This document shows, one piece after another, positions 40,615 to 48,717 of a DNA stretch of 64,000 nt (position 1 is the first letter of the stretch; every line of letters begins with the position of its first letter). The position numbers and the translations under genes are program-made. The notes under the pieces were generated by a model that ran no database searches, was not told the DNA's origin, and worked only from the letters and a program-made list of their open reading frames with translations. Source of the DNA: Chitinophagales bacterium (lineage in GTDB: Bacteria > Bacteroidota > Bacteroidia > Chitinophagales > JADJOU01); NCBI GenBank assembly GCA_016787225.1, contig JAEUUY010000011.1:1-64000 (forward strand), given 5' to 3'.

Positions 40615-41415
40615 CTATTTCAAAAATAATTCTTTTATAAGGATATAAATTCCCATAATAAGAACAAACCAACCAAATCCGACTTTTAGCTTAGCTCCAT
40701 CTATTTTTTTGGTTAAGAAAATGCCGATAAACATTCCCATAATTGCTGCTAAAGTAAAATAGCCTATCAAATGAAAATCCATATTAGGATTCGTCTTTAA
40801 ATCACCGAAGAAACCCAAAAGTGACTTGGCAGCTATGATAAGAAGAGATGTACCTACAGCCAATTTTATAGGTATCCTAGCTAGCAAGACCAATGCAGGA
40901 ATGATTAAAAATCCGCCACCTGCCCCTACTAACCCTGTTAAGACACCTACAAAAGTACCTTCGAGAAATATCATGGGGAAATTGTACTTAACATCACTGA
41001 AGTTTTTTTCATTTTTGTTGCTCGGCTTAATCATGCTGTAGGAAGCTAAAATCATAACCAAGGCAAAAAGCATCATTAAAAAAATATCTTTTGTAATGAT
41101 AAATCCACCAATAGTCAATATTTCTTTAGGGATAATAGGCAATATAATGGCTCTTGTAATATATACGGCAGCTATTGATGGAATTCCAAAAATGATAGCT
41201 GTTTTCCATTCTACATTTTTCTCGATAGCATTCTTAATGCCTCCAACTAAAGCTGTGGCTCCTACTATGAAAAGTGAATAAGCCGTAGCATTGACAGGCT
41301 CTACTTTCATAATATATACTAAAATAGGAACAGTCAAAATTGAACCTCCACTTCCTATCAAACCAAGGGATATCCCTACAATCACTGCTAATAAATAACC
41401 AATAATTTCTTCCAT
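40615..41415 (-). CDS. TauE/SafE-family sulfite/sulfonate exporter
   Basis: A 266-residue permease with about eight TM helices and both family repeats: GISLGLIGSGGSILTVPILVY at the N-terminus and GVLTGLVGAGGGFLIIPALVLLA in the middle. In sulfur operons this family is thought to expel sulfite or related anions. It lies 3 bp after the ArsR-family gene. Confidence 0.9.
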   Translation of the reverse strand: MEEIIGYLLAVIVGISLGLIGSGGSILTVPILVYIMKVEPVNATAYSLFIVGATALVGGIKNAIEKNVEWKTAIIFGIPSIAAVYITRAIILPIIPKEILTIGGFIITKDIFLMMLFALVMILASYSMIKPSNKNEKNFSDVKYNFPMIFLEGTFVGVLTGLVGAGGGFLIIPALVLLARIPIKLAVGTSLLIIAAKSLLGFFGDLKTNPNMDFHLIGYFTLAAIMGMFIGIFLTKKIDGAKLKVGFGWFVLIMGIYILIKELFLK

Positions 41416-41418
41416 TAC

Positions 41419-41724
41419 TTATTTTACTTTACAATTTTCCATACAATTTAGAAGTTGAATGACTTCTTTTAATTTCAATCGATAATATACAAATTGACCT
41501 TCTTTACTACATTCTAAAATTCCTTTGTCCTTCATTTTTATTAGGTGATGAGATAATAGAGATTGTTCAATGTTCTCTCCAATAGACTTCGAAATATCTT
41601 GAACACTCAAGCCATCGGTTGTCTCTAATATTTCAACTATTTTAAGACGAATAGGATGACTAATCGCTTTTAAAACAGCGGCAATAAACTCTAATTTTTC
41701 TATAGGTAAATTCCTCATTTGCAA
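41419..41724 (-). CDS. ArsR-family regulator of the sulfur operon
   Basis: A 101-residue winged-helix repressor (FIAAVLKAISHPIRLKIVEIL, then EQSLLSHHLIKMKDKGIL). Cysteines lie at about 80, 95 and 99 (ECSKEG, NCMENCKVK), which could serve persulfide sensing as in BigR/SqrR, though the pattern is not the same. It sits near the end of the operon, with a palindrome in front of the first gene as the candidate target. Confidence 0.85.
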   Translation of the reverse strand: MQMRNLPIEKLEFIAAVLKAISHPIRLKIVEILETTDGLSVQDISKSIGENIEQSLLSHHLIKMKDKGILECSKEGQFVYYRLKLKEVIQLLNCMENCKVK

Positions 41725-41730
41725 TTTGTA

Positions 41731-42228
41731 TTAATGGGGCAATTTATCTCTCAATTTTCCATAAACCCAAGTACCAGCTATTGCACTCAAAAGAACAACA
41801 ATAACCACCGTGGCACCACTGCCAATCTGAGCATAAAGTGGACCAGGGCATGCACCTGTCATAGCCCAACCAATACCGAACAATAAACCACCGAATATTT
41901 GACCTTTGTTGAATGACTTAGGTTCTATTTTTATTTCTTCGTCTGCTATAGTTTTTATCTTGAATTTTTTTATCAAGAATACGGATAGTGCTCCTACCAA
42001 GACCGCACTACCTATAATACCATACATATGAAATGATTGCAGGCGAAACATCTCTTGAATTCTAAACCAAGAAATAATTTCAGCTTTGACAAAGACTATC
42101 CCAAATAAAATACCTACAATTAGATATTTTAGATTACTCCCAAGAGTTTCCTTTTGTTCGCTTTCATTGACGCAAATTGCATCTTGATGTCTTAGTTCAC
42201 TATCTTTAAAATCCTGATAAGTATTCAT
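41731..42228 (-). CDS. YeeE/YedE-family transporter half (C-terminal type)
   Basis: A 165-residue membrane protein. I choose the ATG at 42226-42228 (MNTYQDFKDSEL) because longer starts would overlap the upstream gene. The GWAMTGACPGPLYAQIGSG motif carries the conserved Cys implicated in thiosulfate relay in YeeE. It works with the adjacent half-size YeeE protein. Confidence 0.87.
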   Translation of the reverse strand: MNTYQDFKDSELRHQDAICVNESEQKETLGSNLKYLIVGILFGIVFVKAEIISWFRIQEMFRLQSFHMYGIIGSAVLVGALSVFLIKKFKIKTIADEEIKIEPKSFNKGQIFGGLLFGIGWAMTGACPGPLYAQIGSGATVVIVVLLSAIAGTWVYGKLRDKLPH

Positions 42229-42238
42229 TATATAAAAT

Positions 42239-42799
42239 TTAAAGTGAAAGAATAAAAGGTACAATAAACCAAGCACTAACAAATCCACCAATCATAAAAC
42301 AGATAGTGGCGACAAGCGAAGGCCATTGCAGATTGGACAAACCCATAATAGCATGTCCACTGGTACATCCACCTGCATAGCGTGTGCCAAAACCAACAAG
42401 AAAACCACCGACAACCATCATTAAAAATCCCTTGAGTGTAAACACAGAATTCCAATTAAACAAATCATTAGGCACCAGACCTGATAGATTTGTAATACCA
42501 TTTTGAGCTAAAAAATTTTGCAACTCGGGATGCATCAAAATTTCTCCCGAATGAGACAAAAACATTCCAGCGATGACACCACCTATGAATATACCCGCTA
42601 CAAAAAACAGATTCCAAATTTCTTTTTTCCAATTATATTGAAAGAAAGGAATATTTCCTGGTATGCAGGATGCACAGATATGTCTCAATGAAGAGGATAT
42701 ACCAAATGTCTTATTGCCTATAATTAATAATAGAGGCACCGTAAGTCCAATTAGCGGACCAGCAATATACCAAGGCAAAGTTTGTCTCAAAAATTCCAT
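42239..42799 (-). CDS. YeeE/YedE-family transporter half (N-terminal type)
   Basis: A 186-residue membrane protein with about five TM helices and GTRYAGGCTSGHAIMGLSNLQWPS, the Cys-containing half-channel motif of YeeE/YedE. Together with the next gene it forms a two-component version of the single-chain thiosulfate carrier. It lies 11 bp after thioredoxin. Confidence 0.9.
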   Translation of the reverse strand: MEFLRQTLPWYIAGPLIGLTVPLLLIIGNKTFGISSSLRHICASCIPGNIPFFQYNWKKEIWNLFFVAGIFIGGVIAGMFLSHSGEILMHPELQNFLAQNGITNLSGLVPNDLFNWNSVFTLKGFLMMVVGGFLVGFGTRYAGGCTSGHAIMGLSNLQWPSLVATICFMIGGFVSAWFIVPFILSL

Positions 42800-42810
42800 A
42801 TAATACTAAA

Positions 42811-43119
42811 TTAATTGTTGCTTATTACTTGATTTAAAATGTCTTCGAGTTGATTGGTATCTACTACACCAGAATGTCTCCATATTTGTTCACCTTTCAG
42901 ATATATCATCAAGGTAGGAATACTCCTGATCTGAAGAAACTGAGATAAGTCTTGATTTTTTTCTGTATCTATTTTTACTATCATGGCTTTGTCTCCCATT
43001 CGCTCTTTAAGATCTACAAGTATCGGTTTCATAGCTTGACATGGACCGCACCAGTCAGCATAAAAATCTAAGAGGACTGGCTTGTCTGAATTGATTAAGT
43101 TTTGAAATTTATCGTTCAT
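42811..43119 (-). CDS. trxA: Thioredoxin
   Basis: A 102-residue protein with the WCGPC active site (about 27-31) and the cis-Pro region SIPTLMIYLKGE. Its start lies within the end of the TPMT-HMA gene (11-base overlap). In this operon it may reduce persulfidated proteins or receive sulfane sulfur. Confidence 0.95.
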   Translation of the reverse strand: MNDKFQNLINSDKPVLLDFYADWCGPCQAMKPILVDLKERMGDKAMIVKIDTEKNQDLSQFLQIRSIPTLMIYLKGEQIWRHSGVVDTNQLEDILNQVISNN

Positions 43120-43984
43120 GATATAAGTTTAAAGTGGAAAGTTTAAAGTAAGGCAACCTATCAATCTTATAATCTTCATCATACGAAACCAATTCTTGCA
43201 ATATTCTCACATCAATCTCATGGTCACTTACAATCAAAATTTCTTTGAAGTCTGAACTCATACTGACATTTTTTACTCCTTCCATTTTTGAATAAATCTC
43301 TGTGACGGAATTTTTACATCCATTGCAAGTAATACCTTGAAATAAATATAGATTTACCAAGACATTTATTTTTTTAAATTGAAAAATCAATTCTGTTTGC
43401 GAGCGAGGCTGTATGGAATTTGACGCTGTTTCTAGAATCTCAAAAAAGAATGCACCATGAAAAAGTTCTTCATATTCTTCTCGGCTTCCACCAAATGGCG
43501 GACTTTGCTCGAATGTTCTATTAAAAAGAAGTCCAGCTAAAATTCCGTATTCCTTTAATAAATGGTGCATTTTCCAAACATATCTTTGGCGCATACGTGT
43601 TGGTAAAGCACAGAAGAAAGTTTGCTCTAGAATTACATCATAGTTCTCATTATGCTTAAAAAAATCATCACAAATCACTTTTACTTGCGGATTTTTTGCA
43701 AATTTTTCTTTCAATAAATTACTGGCTGTTTCAGAAATATCGATCAATGTAATATCAGTAAATCCTTTACTAATTAAATACTCTGCCTCATAAGCATTTC
43801 CACAACCAGGTATTAAAATTCTAGCATTTTTATTTTCTATCGTCTCAATAAATGAAACTAAGGGTGGGGCAGGCATTCCTAAATCCCAACCAGTAGTTTG
43901 ACTTTTCCATTGATTATCCCAATATTGTGCATCAAGTGGTCGCTCACATACCACGACACAGCAGCCATTATCTATTTTAGTCAT
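43109..43984 (-). CDS. TPMT-family methyltransferase fused to a heavy-metal-associated (HMA) domain
   Basis: A 291-residue protein. The start at 43982-43984 (MTKIDNGCCVVVCERPLD) overlaps the previous stop; longer frames are less likely. Residues about 15-205 match thiopurine methyltransferase relatives (YWDNQWKSQTTGWDLG, ILIPGCGNAYEAEYL for SAM, DVILEQTFFCALPTRMR). Residues about 215-285 form an HMA domain with CNGC (FQGITCNGCKNSVTEIYSKM). A GCCVVVC cluster lies at the extreme N-terminus. Bacterial TPMTs methylate selenium, tellurium or sulfide-type nucleophiles, so a metal- or chalcogen-methylating role is plausible but unproven. Confidence 0.82.
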   Translation of the reverse strand: MTKIDNGCCVVVCERPLDAQYWDNQWKSQTTGWDLGMPAPPLVSFIETIENKNARILIPGCGNAYEAEYLISKGFTDITLIDISETASNLLKEKFAKNPQVKVICDDFFKHNENYDVILEQTFFCALPTRMRQRYVWKMHHLLKEYGILAGLLFNRTFEQSPPFGGSREEYEELFHGAFFFEILETASNSIQPRSQTELIFQFKKINVLVNLYLFQGITCNGCKNSVTEIYSKMEGVKNVSMSSDFKEILIVSDHEIDVRILQELVSYDEDYKIDRLPYFKLSTLNLYHER

Positions 43985-44198
43985 CTGTCTTGTTTTCTTT
44001 TGGTGAATAAGTGCATGCACTGCCTTCGCAGCCGCAACCAAGATTCCATAGAGGCATTAGTGCAAAGCCAAATCCTAACATGGCTACCATCCATTGATGA
44101 GCTAGAATTCCTTGTACTAGAAGTAATATACCAAGGAGGAGCCTTATGACACGCATAAAGCTCCATGGCATTTTTAGTTTTTCGATTAGAACTTGCAT
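43977..44198 (-). CDS. Small membrane protein, DUF2892-like
   Basis: A 73-residue protein with two TM helices (MRVIRLLLGILLLVQGIL and WMVAMLGFGFALMPLW). A Cys-rich tail (GCGCEGSACTY) suggests metal or sulfane-sulfur binding. It starts 13 bases inside the upstream DUF2892 gene and overlaps the methyltransferase start, which indicates strong translational coupling. Confidence 0.7.
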   Translation of the reverse strand: MQVLIEKLKMPWSFMRVIRLLLGILLLVQGILAHQWMVAMLGFGFALMPLWNLGCGCEGSACTYSPKENKTDD

Positions 44199-44386
44199 GT
44201 ATCTATTCCTAAAACTTTGTAAAGAGGGCAGAATTTAAGCAGACCAGTCACGAGCATAACGACTGCAGCAATACCTAGTACCCAGCTCAAAGTGCCAGTC
44301 ACAGTTCCACTCCAGTCAAGATAGGCTAGAATAGCTGCTAATACGATTCGAACGATCATGTCAATTTTTCCTACATTTTTTGTCAT
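44186..44386 (-). CDS. DUF2892 (YgaP-type) membrane protein
   Basis: A 66-residue protein with two TM helices and the family pattern MTKNVGKIDMIVRIVLAAIL, ending in FCPLYKVLGIDTC. DUF2892 is the membrane part of the YgaP rhodanese. Here it is separate from, but next to, a rhodanese gene. Confidence 0.85.
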   Translation of the reverse strand: MTKNVGKIDMIVRIVLAAILAYLDWSGTVTGTLSWVLGIAAVVMLVTGLLKFCPLYKVLGIDTCKF

Positions 44387-44555: not shown

Positions 44556-44867
44556 TTATATATTTTTTACTTTTTCATTGACTGCTTGCCAAGTTCCTCC
44601 ATTGATCACATTAGTAAATCCATTTCTTTCTAATATAGACTTAGCTTGCGAACTTCGATTACCACTACGACAAAAAACGATAATGTTTTTCTTCCCTTTC
44701 AATTGATTCAGTGAATTCGGAATTCTATCAAGTGGTATATTGGTAGATCCTTTTACATGACCTGCATCGAATTCTTGAGGTGTTCGCACATCAACGAGAT
44801 AGGCTCCTTCTTTAAGTTTTTCAGAAATATCAACGCTGCTGAAGAGACTTTTTATAAATTGAAACAC
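44556..44867 (-). CDS. Single-domain rhodanese
   Basis: A 103-residue sulfurtransferase with the active-site loop CRSGNRS (Cys about 68) and DVRTPQEFDAGHVKGSTNIP. It likely shuttles sulfane sulfur between the upstream CstB-like enzyme and later acceptors. Confidence 0.93.
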   Translation of the reverse strand: MFQFIKSLFSSVDISEKLKEGAYLVDVRTPQEFDAGHVKGSTNIPLDRIPNSLNQLKGKKNIIVFCRSGNRSSQAKSILERNGFTNVINGGTWQAVNEKVKNI

Positions 44868-44911: not shown

Positions 44912-46333
44912 TTATAGCATGGTTGAAGGACAAACATAGTCTGAAATCTTAAACTTACCACTTTCTTTGATGGCAGAAAACCCACCTGCTACATTGATTA
45001 AATTTTCATATCCTCTCGCTTTTAGAATAGATGCAAATATGACAGAACGATAACCTCCTGCACAATGCACATAATAAGTCTTGTCTTTATCTACTTTTTT
45101 CATGCTCTCGTTTATATAATCAAGTGGAGCATTGACTGCACCTATAATATGTTCGCTAAAATTTTCTGATTGCTTTCTCACATCAAGGATATTTATAGTA
45201 GCATCTTCTGCTTCTCTTTTTGCGAATTCGTCGGCTGATACTGAAGGAACGTGATCTATCTCTTTGTTGGCTTTTTTCCAAGCATCAAATCCTCCCGCCA
45301 AATGTCCAATCGCATGATCATAGCCCACACGAGCCAATCTAGTTATGACCTCTTCTTCCCGACCAGGGTCTGCTACTACTAAGATTTCTTGTTTCACATC
45401 TGGGATTAAAGTGCCTACCCATACAGCGAAACTACCATCTATCCCTATAAATATGGAGTTTGGAACAAATCCTTCCGTAAAAATTTGAGGTGCTCTCGTA
45501 TCTATAATTACTGCACCCGTTTCGTTGGCCTTAGCTTCAAACTCTTCTGGCGTTAATGCGGTCATACCATTGCTAATGACTTTTTGAATAGGGTCATAGC
45601 CTTGAATATTCATCAACACATTCTGAGGAAAATATCCTGGAGGAGGCATCAAGCCATCTAGTACTTTCTCCACAAACTCATCTTCGCTCATTTCTTGTAG
45701 TGCATAGTTTACCTTCTTTTGATTACCTAGAGTATCTGAAGTTTCCTTACTCATATTTTTCCCGCAGGCACTACCCGCACCGTGTGCAGGATATACTATT
45801 ATATCATCCGCAAGTGGCATCAATTTATTTCGTAATGAATGATAGAGATGTCTCGCCAATTTATCTTGAGTCAAATCTGCTACCACTTTTTGTGCCAAAT
45901 CAGGACGACCTACATCACCTATAAATAAGGTATCTCCTGTGAAAATAGCCGAATCTTTTCCTTTGTCATCTGTCAATAGATAACAGCTGCTCTCCATAGT
46001 ATGCCCGGGAGTATGAATAACTTTTAGCTTTAAATCTCCAATAGCAAATACCTCGCCATCGGTAGCTATATGTGCATCAAATCCAGTAGTCATAGTAGTA
46101 GGACCATAAACTATTGTAGCACCTGTGGCCTTAGCTAAATCCACATGTCCACTGACAAAATCAGCATGAAAATGCGTTTCAAATATATATTTTATTTTCA
46201 CACCGTCTTTGTTGGCTCTGTCTAAATATGGCTGAATTTCTCTGAGTGGATCTATGATGGCTGCCTCACCATTGCTAGCTAAATAATAGGCTCCCTGAGC
46301 CAAACATCCTGTATAAATTTGTTCTAAAATCAT
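44912..46333 (-). CDS. Persulfide dioxygenase-rhodanese fusion (CstB-like)
   Basis: A 473-residue protein. The start is the ATG at 46331-46333 (MILEQIYTGCLAQGAYYL). The N-terminal metallo-beta-lactamase domain has ETHFHADFVSGH and DTLFIGDVGRPDL, the ETHE1/persulfide dioxygenase signature. A first rhodanese-like domain (about 265-350) has VVADPGREEE where the Cys loop should be, so it is a pseudo-rhodanese. The second (about 365-460) has HCAGGYRS with Cys. This three-part order matches Staphylococcus CstB, which converts persulfide to thiosulfate. It is the first gene of the operon. Confidence 0.92.
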   Translation of the reverse strand: MILEQIYTGCLAQGAYYLASNGEAAIIDPLREIQPYLDRANKDGVKIKYIFETHFHADFVSGHVDLAKATGATIVYGPTTMTTGFDAHIATDGEVFAIGDLKLKVIHTPGHTMESSCYLLTDDKGKDSAIFTGDTLFIGDVGRPDLAQKVVADLTQDKLARHLYHSLRNKLMPLADDIIVYPAHGAGSACGKNMSKETSDTLGNQKKVNYALQEMSEDEFVEKVLDGLMPPPGYFPQNVLMNIQGYDPIQKVISNGMTALTPEEFEAKANETGAVIIDTRAPQIFTEGFVPNSIFIGIDGSFAVWVGTLIPDVKQEILVVADPGREEEVITRLARVGYDHAIGHLAGGFDAWKKANKEIDHVPSVSADEFAKREAEDATINILDVRKQSENFSEHIIGAVNAPLDYINESMKKVDKDKTYYVHCAGGYRSVIFASILKARGYENLINVAGGFSAIKESGKFKISDYVCPSTML

Positions 46334-46354
46334 ATTGTTACTTATTAGGTTATG

Positions 46355-46383
46355 CAAATATAAATAAATGAACATATATTCAT
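46355..46383 (-). promoter_or_regulatory. Promoter and palindromic operator of the sulfur operon
   Basis: Leftward TATATTTG (complement of 46355-46362) is a -7 element 21 bp before the CstB-like start. Five bases upstream is a near-perfect 16-bp palindrome ATGAACATATATTCAT (46368-46383; seven of eight pairs match), well placed for repression by the ArsR-family product. Confidence 0.6.
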
Positions 46384-46757: not shown

Positions 46758-47465
46758 ATGGATAGTAAGCAAAGAGCCCAAATTATTGAAAACGCAAAAA
46801 ACTTTTTCAGAAATGAGATAGTTCAAAGTCATATAGAAGGAGCTTGTGAAAGGGCAAGTAAGCTATCTGAGTATAATGTAAATCCATTTTTATTCAAGTA
46901 TTTAGCAAACTTTTTAACTGGTAATGATGATTCAGAAAGTATTGCAAGAGCATTAGTACTGCCAAGAATTTTGGGGTCTTCAATTAATACTTCATTTGGT
47001 ATGAAAATTCAAAATTTGATAAGTTCACTATTTCAAGGATTAGGCTCAACAACACAAGGGATTGATATCGAATTTATCGATGCTATTGATGGCAATAAAA
47101 AATATTGTCAATTAAAAGCTGGTCCTAACACAATAAATCATGATGATGTAACTACAATTATTAACCATTTTAATGGTGTACGTACTTTAGCTAGGACTAA
47201 CAATCTTAATGTTGGTATAAATGATATGATTGTTGGAGTTGTCTATGGTGAAAATACGGAACTAAGCTCACATTACAAAAAAATTAGTAGTACATACCCT
47301 GTTATCATTGGTAAAGACTTTTGGCATAGACTAACTGGTAAAGATGATTTCTATTTTGAACTGATAGATGCTATTGGAGAAGTAGCTCTAGAAGTTGATG
47401 CAAGTAAAGTAGTAGATCAAACCATTCAGAAGTTAACTATCGAGATAGAAAAAAAATACAAATAG
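46758..47465 (+). CDS. Type II restriction endonuclease, PmeII/EcoO109I-like
   Basis: A 235-residue protein. A PD-(D/E)xK-type core is visible in GIDIEFIDAIDGNKKYCQLKAG (about 100-121) with acidic residues followed by QLK. NPFLFKYLANFLTG and GKDFWHRLTG are shared with the PmeII/EcoO109I group as I recall it. It is convergent with the cytosine methyltransferase, only 4 bp between stops, forming a complete R-M pair. The recognition site cannot be read from sequence, though RGGNCCY-type targets occur in this group. Confidence 0.78.
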   Translation: MDSKQRAQIIENAKNFFRNEIVQSHIEGACERASKLSEYNVNPFLFKYLANFLTGNDDSESIARALVLPRILGSSINTSFGMKIQNLISSLFQGLGSTTQGIDIEFIDAIDGNKKYCQLKAGPNTINHDDVTTIINHFNGVRTLARTNNLNVGINDMIVGVVYGENTELSSHYKKISSTYPVIIGKDFWHRLTGKDDFYFELIDAIGEVALEVDASKVVDQTIQKLTIEIEKKYK

Positions 47466-47469
47466 TCAG

Positions 47470-48705
47470 TTAACTCATAGAATATCGTGAATAATACTGG
47501 TTTAAAAATTTAACTATTGAATAGCCGACCTCTGCCCCTAAACTAACTGGAACAGCATTCCCTATTTGTTTATATTGTTGAGCTAAAGAGCCTTCAAAAG
47601 ACCAATCATCTGGAAATGTTTGTATTCTAGCATACTCTCTAACAGTGAAAGGTCTTGTTTCTTCAGGATGACATCGTTCTGTTTGTTTTTGAGCTGGACT
47701 ACAAGTAAGAGTAAGACAAGGCTCATCCCAACCAATTCTCCTAGCGATACCAGTTTTACCCCCACCTAAATAAAAACTCCCACCCATAAATTTTTTTTGA
47801 ATATCAATTGGCAAATCTCGCCAATATCCTTTTTGCGGAACCAAGTCTAAAATAACTTTCTTACTTTGAGGATATTTTACGCCGGGTGATTTTGGAACAT
47901 TGGTATTATATAATTCCCCTTTTTTTAATGCATCCTTCAAACAATAAATTTTACTATGAGGTTTAGGATATTCGTATTGAATACTAATATCCTTTCTAAT
48001 TCCAACTAATATCAATCTTTCTCTTTTTTGAGGAACTTTATAATTTATTGCTTTTAAAACTTGGACAGGAACAATTTTATATCCAATCTCATTTAAAATT
48101 GAAATCATTCCTTCCAATGTTTTTCCATTTTCGTGACTTAACAACCCTCTAACATTTTCTCCAATACAAATTAGTGGATTTACTTCTTTAACGACCCTTG
48201 CAAACTCATAAAACAAAGTCCCTCTAGCATCAGCAAGTCCTAACTTTTTTCCAGCATAACTAAACGCTTGACACGGAAATCCACCTGTAACAACATCAAC
48301 TTTATTATAATATTCTGAAAAATTATAGTCCTTTATGTCACCTTCTAAAACATTCCAATTTGGTCTGTTTTTTCTCAATGTTTGACATGCCCATTTATCA
48401 ATTTCATTTAAAGCTACACATTTAAATCCAGCTTTTTCCATTCCAACTGCTAGACCTCCAGCACCTGCAAAAAGTTCTAAGACAGAGTATTCATTAAGCG
48501 GTTTTTCAAAGTTTGAAATATGTTCATTTTCAGAGTTTACGAAATCTGAAAAAAGCACTTCAACTTCTTTTCGTTTATACACTCTGTAATTACTCATAGG
48601 CTCTCTAACTGCAGTTAGCTTCCCCTCTCTATCCCAACGTCTAAGGGTTTCCTTACTTTTTCCAATTAGTTCAGATACCTCTGATAATGACAAATATTCT
48701 TTCAT
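47470..48705 (-). CDS. DNA (cytosine-5) methyltransferase with N-terminal MerR-like HTH
   Basis: A 411-residue protein. I use the ATG at 48703-48705 (a TTG two codons upstream also opens the frame). Residues about 1-55 are a MerR-type HTH (LSLSEVSELIGKSKETLRRWDREGKL, then NYRVYKRKEVEVLF). C5-methyltransferase motifs follow: I (LELFAGAGGLAVGM, about 77), IV (GGFPCQ with catalytic Cys, about 140), VI (GENVRG), VIII (QKRERLILVG) and X (QIGNAVPV). The HTH probably autoregulates the pair. Confidence 0.93.
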   Translation of the reverse strand: MKEYLSLSEVSELIGKSKETLRRWDREGKLTAVREPMSNYRVYKRKEVEVLFSDFVNSENEHISNFEKPLNEYSVLELFAGAGGLAVGMEKAGFKCVALNEIDKWACQTLRKNRPNWNVLEGDIKDYNFSEYYNKVDVVTGGFPCQAFSYAGKKLGLADARGTLFYEFARVVKEVNPLICIGENVRGLLSHENGKTLEGMISILNEIGYKIVPVQVLKAINYKVPQKRERLILVGIRKDISIQYEYPKPHSKIYCLKDALKKGELYNTNVPKSPGVKYPQSKKVILDLVPQKGYWRDLPIDIQKKFMGGSFYLGGGKTGIARRIGWDEPCLTLTCSPAQKQTERCHPEETRPFTVREYARIQTFPDDWSFEGSLAQQYKQIGNAVPVSLGAEVGYSIVKFLNQYYSRYSMS

Positions 48706-48717
48706 AACCAAGTTGTT

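Follow-up and report, generated by a model that had tools for sequence, protein, structure and literature searches.

Members of the halide/thiol methyltransferase family (HMT/HTMT; PDB 8ajp, 9h04-9h09 and 3lcc) methylate I−, HS− and SCN−, and the plant HTMT from radish methylates HS− (PMC2752461). Human and mouse TPMT and bacterial tmpT belong to Pfam family PF05724; in vitro, human TPMT methylates HS−, HSS− and glutathione persulfide (GSS−), the mammalian enzyme also accepts polysulfides, with selenite-derived anions as good substrates in the same study, and trimethylsulfonium excretion is lower in TPMT-null mice (PMC13089183). In bacteria, H2S detoxification by SAM-dependent S-methylation has been proposed for the H2S and MeSH methyltransferases MddA, MddH, MddM1 and MddM2; MddH/MddM are described as related to TMT1A/B and MddA as an integral membrane enzyme (PMC12904073), descriptions that set them apart from the protein considered here.

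Persulfide detoxification is commonly told as oxidation alone. We analysed a stretch of 64,000 nucleotides from a Chitinophagales bacterium (contig JAEUUY010000011.1, positions 1 to 64,000; hereafter, the window), which contains an operon-borne methyltransferase whose conservation in Bacteroidota suggests a parallel methylation branch, of the kind recently reported for the mammalian enzyme TPMT. Such a branch might also make bacteria a source of methylated sulfur gases.

A methyltransferase-HMA fusion in a sulfide-detoxification operon

The original prediction placed a TPMT methyltransferase fused to an HMA domain at positions 43109-43984, within a sulfur operon. Both the coordinates and the setting were right, with the gene on the minus strand: an intact ORF of 291 aa runs from an ATG at 43984 to a stop ending at 43109, and the N-terminus of its product is MTKIDNGCCVVVCERPLD. 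The neighbouring genes are sulfide genes on the same strand and overlapping (Table 1), and the presence in one cluster of a persulfide dioxygenase, a rhodanese, TauE and a regulator identifies a cst/bigR-like operon for sulfide/persulfide detoxification. The persulfide dioxygenase-rhodanese, TauE and a small repressor-type regulator are common to the described cst/bigR operons, to which the window operon adds the TPMT(-HMA), a thioredoxin, the YgaP-like transmembrane protein and a split YeeE. The equivalog models for BigR (NF040642, 41.5 vs 155) and Blh (NF040641, 64 vs 625) were not satisfied. No SBP56 methanethiol oxidase was found in the same genome, which we count against the function proposed below.

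Table 1. Features of the TPMT-HMA gene and its operon in the window.
Feature	Coordinates	Strand	Basis or remark
TPMT-HMA fusion gene, P0001	43109..43984	-	291 aa; ORF call, Pfam, AF2
CCVVVC motif, Cys 8, 9, 13	43946..43963	-	on N-terminal tail predicted disordered
TPMT / halide-thiol-methyltransferase catalytic core, residues 18-205	43370..43933	-	Pfam PF05724; PDB matches 9h04, 9h0d, 8ajp, 3lcc
HMA domain, residues 209-278, C-terminal	43151..43360	-	Pfam PF00403, fold
HMA CxxC, C220-N-G-C223	43316..43327	-	invariant in alignment with G217 and Y272
HMA loop Tyr272	43169..43171	-	invariant in 51/51; D..Y pattern in 53/53 CxxC-intact
Persulfide dioxygenase-rhodanese (MBL and rhodanese domains)	44912..46375	-	Pfam Lactamase_B, Rhodanese
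Single-domain rhodanese	44556..44867	-	Pfam Rhodanese
YgaP-like transmembrane protein	44186..44386	-	Pfam PF11127
Small Cys-containing membrane protein, GCGCEGSAC, 73 aa, no family	43977..44198	-	overlaps TPMT-HMA start by 8 nt
Thioredoxin, WCGPC	42811..43119	-	overlaps TPMT-HMA stop by 11 nt
YeeE/TsuA-like sulfur transporter half 1	42239..42799	-	Pfam Sulf_transp
YeeE/TsuA-like sulfur transporter half 2	41731..42228	-	Pfam Sulf_transp / DUF6691
ArsR/SmtB-type regulator	41419..41724	-	NF033788, 69 bits
TauE/SafE sulfite/organosulfur exporter	40615..41415	-	Pfam TauE

Joining of two genes by a sequencing error, one way in which the prediction might have failed, is ruled out by the recurrence of the fusion in dozens of species, with 54 distinct homologues retaining it together with the CxxC. 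Our literature search retrieved no description of a TPMT-HMA fusion, and among plasmid records no match covered 80% of the query or exceeded 31% identity.

As a separate observation, the 73-aa membrane protein ending in GCGCEGSAC is conserved beside many TPMTs bearing the N-terminal CC motif, and a second type of small protein, with GCxxGxC and a weak DUF6132 match, occurs in related operons.

Domain architecture and distribution

Residues 18-195 match Pfam TPMT (PF05724) with E=2.7e-27 and 96.3 bits (whole-protein cut-off 26). The AlphaFold2 model of the full-length fusion (pLDDT 91.6, pTM 0.88) is closest, among solved structures, to halide/thiol methyltransferases (8ajp, Z 25.9; 9h08, 23.5; 3lcc, 23.1), with mammalian TPMT next in the ranking (Z 21.5). 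By fold and by sequence, halide/thiol methyltransferases are thus the nearest of the TPMT-type enzymes (Z 23-26 and about 30% identity, against 18-19% identity to thiopurine S-methyltransferase), and they have the TFFCA motif in common with the window protein, although the Tulasnella enzyme reads DYTFF where the window protein reads EQTFF. Their solved chains align with the core alone and show no HMA domain. The core motifs PGCG (C61) and EQTFFCA (C125) are conserved across nearly all relatives. As aligned by eye, the Gln of the EQT motif apparently stands in place of Arg152, a residue important to the human enzyme in methylating persulfides, and this counts against the function proposed below. 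The protein scored 65 bits against the Se/Te thiopurine methyltransferase equivalog TIGR03840, well below its cut-off of 223.2.

In the whole protein, the HMA match (residues 216-263) reached 24.0 bits (E=5e-5), slightly below the PF00403 cut-off of 24.8, and residues 205-291 alone, which contain the predicted CNGC as C220-N-G-C223, reached 26.9 bits. The homologous C-terminal domains matched HMA in 50/51 cases (best E 1.9e-9). Because the full-length fold search was filled by methyltransferase matches and said little on the HMA, we modelled this domain alone, obtaining a beta-alpha-beta-beta-alpha-beta, ferredoxin-like fold (AF2 pLDDT 84.8) whose best Foldseek matches were metal-binding domains of ATP7B, PacS, CsoZ and MerP. 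The only invariant residues in an alignment of 51 HMA sequences were G217, C220, C223, L262 and Y272, the last presumably equivalent to the Tyr found in this loop in bacterial Cu(I) chaperones. The fold, the GxTCxxC motif and the loop Tyr are common to CopZ/Atx1/MerP-type domains; unlike these, the window domain is joined to a methyltransferase and lies in a sulfur operon. The HMA domain of the fusion is therefore genuine, with a putative soft-metal site.

In the model, the first HMA strand (209-216) directly continues from the last TPMT strand (198-205). At the other end of the chain, the predicted GCCVVVC cluster corresponds to Cys 8, 9 and 13 and follows the pattern CC-V/I-x-x-C (CCxxxC) across relatives; residues 1-10, with two of these three cysteines, are predicted to be disordered (pLDDT <50).

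The TPMT core is widespread in Bacteroidota, with a match in 50/60 relatives, mostly unfused, and occurs in three kinds: plain, with the N-terminal CCxxxC but no fusion, and HMA-fused. Fusions appear at two places in the tree, one comprising the window's genus and Flavobacterium and the other a second group (L018, L019, L021 and L125). Within Flavobacterium, about 50 of 299 species have the fusion, and this genus contributes most of the 54 CxxC-keeping homologues. The loci were chosen for their similarity to the query and many lie on short contigs; some of the context counts are minimum values. A persulfide dioxygenase lay within 6 kb in 31/34 loci of CC-motif TPMTs versus 23/51 of those without the motif (Fisher p=1e-5, relatedness ignored), in favour of the function proposed below.

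Correlated evolution of the two cysteine motifs

Among 64 distinct fused proteins, the HMA CxxC is kept in 54 and the HMA cysteines are lost in 10. Full CCxxxC motifs are found in 49 of the CxxC-keepers; four others lack one Cys (L128, L169, L170 and L173) and in one the sequence is truncated where its contig ends. Conversely, a full N-terminal motif is missing from nine of the 10 that lost the HMA cysteines and present only in L182.

We compared the two traits by Pagel's test in the window/Flavobacterium clade (77 tips), using a tree built from the core only, with neither end of the protein included. The likelihood-ratio statistic (LRT) was 42.6 (p=1.3e-8); the core tree has weak deep branches and the test can be sensitive to a few large clades, yet 38 control core columns of similar variability gave at most 17.7 on the same tree. 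The LRT was 44.5 on an IQ-TREE tree, 24.9 (p=5e-5) when restricted to proteins retaining an HMA-like domain, and 42.1 when the tail was scored as having at least two Cys, with no intact HMA lacking them in this set. By parsimony, the HMA state changed 12 times, with repeated losses of cysteines that nearly always coincided with loss of the N-terminal motif.

These results demonstrate correlated evolution of the N-terminal CCxxxC and the HMA CxxC, which sit towards the two ends of the chain, a finding that to our knowledge is new. Since they are kept or lost together, the two cysteine sets probably work as one unit, and the original view that both groups serve one soft-element-handling function gains support. 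All 10 Cys-less fused proteins are still beside a persulfide dioxygenase, indicating that cysteine loss is not explained by leaving the operon and that the core can do its work, whatever this is, without the module. We count this dispensability against the function proposed below, together with the occurrence of CCxxxC in 26 unfused proteins, mostly with no HMA gene detected nearby.

Separately, core residues W137 and A178 (43574-43576 and 43451-43453, minus strand) follow HMA presence, more weakly than the N-terminal cysteines do, and may mark a docking face for the HMA.

Proposed function and alternatives

We propose that the protein is an S-methyltransferase of sulfide- or persulfide-like species carrying a two-part thiolate module that binds one soft ligand, a reading to which we assign a probability of about 0.5; we infer its substrate, its ligand and the meeting of the two sites in space. 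The SAM-dependent, halide/thiol (TPMT)-type core would act beside the persulfide dioxygenase and offer a branch alongside oxidation. Its substrates would most likely be HS− or small persulfides/polysulfides, and its products methyl sulfur compounds that are volatile or less reactive. The CCxxxC, on a flexible tail just ahead of the first helix, and the HMA CxxC would jointly bind either sulfane sulfur or a soft metal, for example Cu(I), and this binding would capture the substrate or gate access to the active site, the cysteine module being optional. As to the type of ligand, the invariant HMA residues resemble a metal site and the shared neighbours are sulfur genes, a pair of sequence-based indications that may point to different ligands. 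The coupled cysteine module is thus a case where the evolutionary record by itself suggests that two thiolate sites far apart in the chain act in concert.

The methylation of a bound soft element, as predicted from the DNA, is plausible for sulfide or persulfide, given that the core is nearest to halide/thiol methyltransferases and that plant HTMT (PMC2752461) and mammalian TPMT (PMC13089183) methylate HS−; for mercury it has no support. A more elaborate arrangement, which we regard as rather unlikely, is a MerA-like chalcogen relay, in which the HMA CxxC would accept a soft cargo, either sulfide bound to Cu(I) or sulfane sulfur donated by rhodanese or thioredoxin, and pass it to the CCxxxC tail for delivery into the methyltransferase pocket, so that protein-bound sulfur, and not free HS−, would be methylated. 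The likeness to MerA is an analogy of layout only, in that MerA too combines an HMA domain (NmerA) with a vicinal CC at the opposite end, its carboxy terminus; the MerA catalytic domain is unrelated, the window core being a TPMT that does not qualify as a flavin disulfide oxidoreductase, and there is no Hg context. The same superficial resemblance (NmerA plus vicinal C-terminal Cys pair; PMC3466566) is what favours detoxification of mercury or arsenic, with the module binding Hg(II) or As(III) and the core methylating it. We consider this highly improbable, because the loci read showed a strong sulfur-gene context and, in the vicinity, no enzyme genes of the mer or ars type; with no mer genes near the gene in these loci, mercury as the predicted substrate is likewise unsupported.

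Possible, though less likely than not, is a role in metal handling. HMA and CCxxxC would then form a site for Cu(I) (or Zn/Cd) with a sensing or buffering role, through which the methyltransferase is controlled, for instance by being turned off or on as copper is removed by sulfide, and the ligand would never enter the catalytic site. The set G217, C220, C223, L262 and Y272 approximates the metal site of CopZ-like chaperones, and the top profile and fold matches are Cu-ATPase and Cu-chaperone domains, but the shared neighbours are sulfur genes, with no transporter, chaperone or regulator specific for copper noted among them. Se methylation by bacterial and mammalian TPMT is known, and the substrate might be a selenide- or tellurite-derived species following the sulfur pathway, with the Cys module binding selenotrisulfide-like adducts. 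The selenite-derived anions methylated by mammalian TPMT (PMC13089183) agree with this; against it stand the low TIGR03840 score and an operon of sulfide, not selenium, type, and we deem it improbable. Nor do we expect the HMA to serve only structure or protein docking and to play no part in ligand binding, an explanation of low probability that draws on the 10 proteins whose Cys-less HMA remnants remain in the operon. In maintained domains the CxxC cysteines and the loop Tyr never vary, and the HMA cysteines are lost with those of the N-terminus; such dependence on a remote Cys motif would not arise if the domain were purely structural.

Standalone HMA genes and other observations

A standalone HMA gene is found near 6/26 unfused CC-motif TPMTs outside the Flavobacterium clade, 3/54 CxxC-fused and 0/93 plain TPMTs, and the contrast between the first and the last of these counts favours the proposed function. 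Derivation of the fusion from such a neighbour is weakened as an explanation by L017 and L126, which carry both and whose HMA types differ: the standalone type has CGGC and a C-terminal SxxSCxIG tail, unlike the fused HMA. In standalone proteins such as that at L043:6841-7098, the conserved C-terminal SYxSCAIGK is a possible third cysteine site. The sulfide operons with a CC-motif TPMT and a standalone HMA in L043, L048, L065, L067 and L069 show 97–99% DNA identity across about 7.3 kb, or about 2.4 kb for L067, and the presence of a near-identical operon in Pedobacter, Flavobacterium and Halpernia suggests recent transfer between families.

Elsewhere in the window, at 46758-48711, an EcoO109I-type restriction endonuclease (PF14511) adjoins a C5 cytosine methylase that has an N-terminal MerR-type helix-turn-helix.
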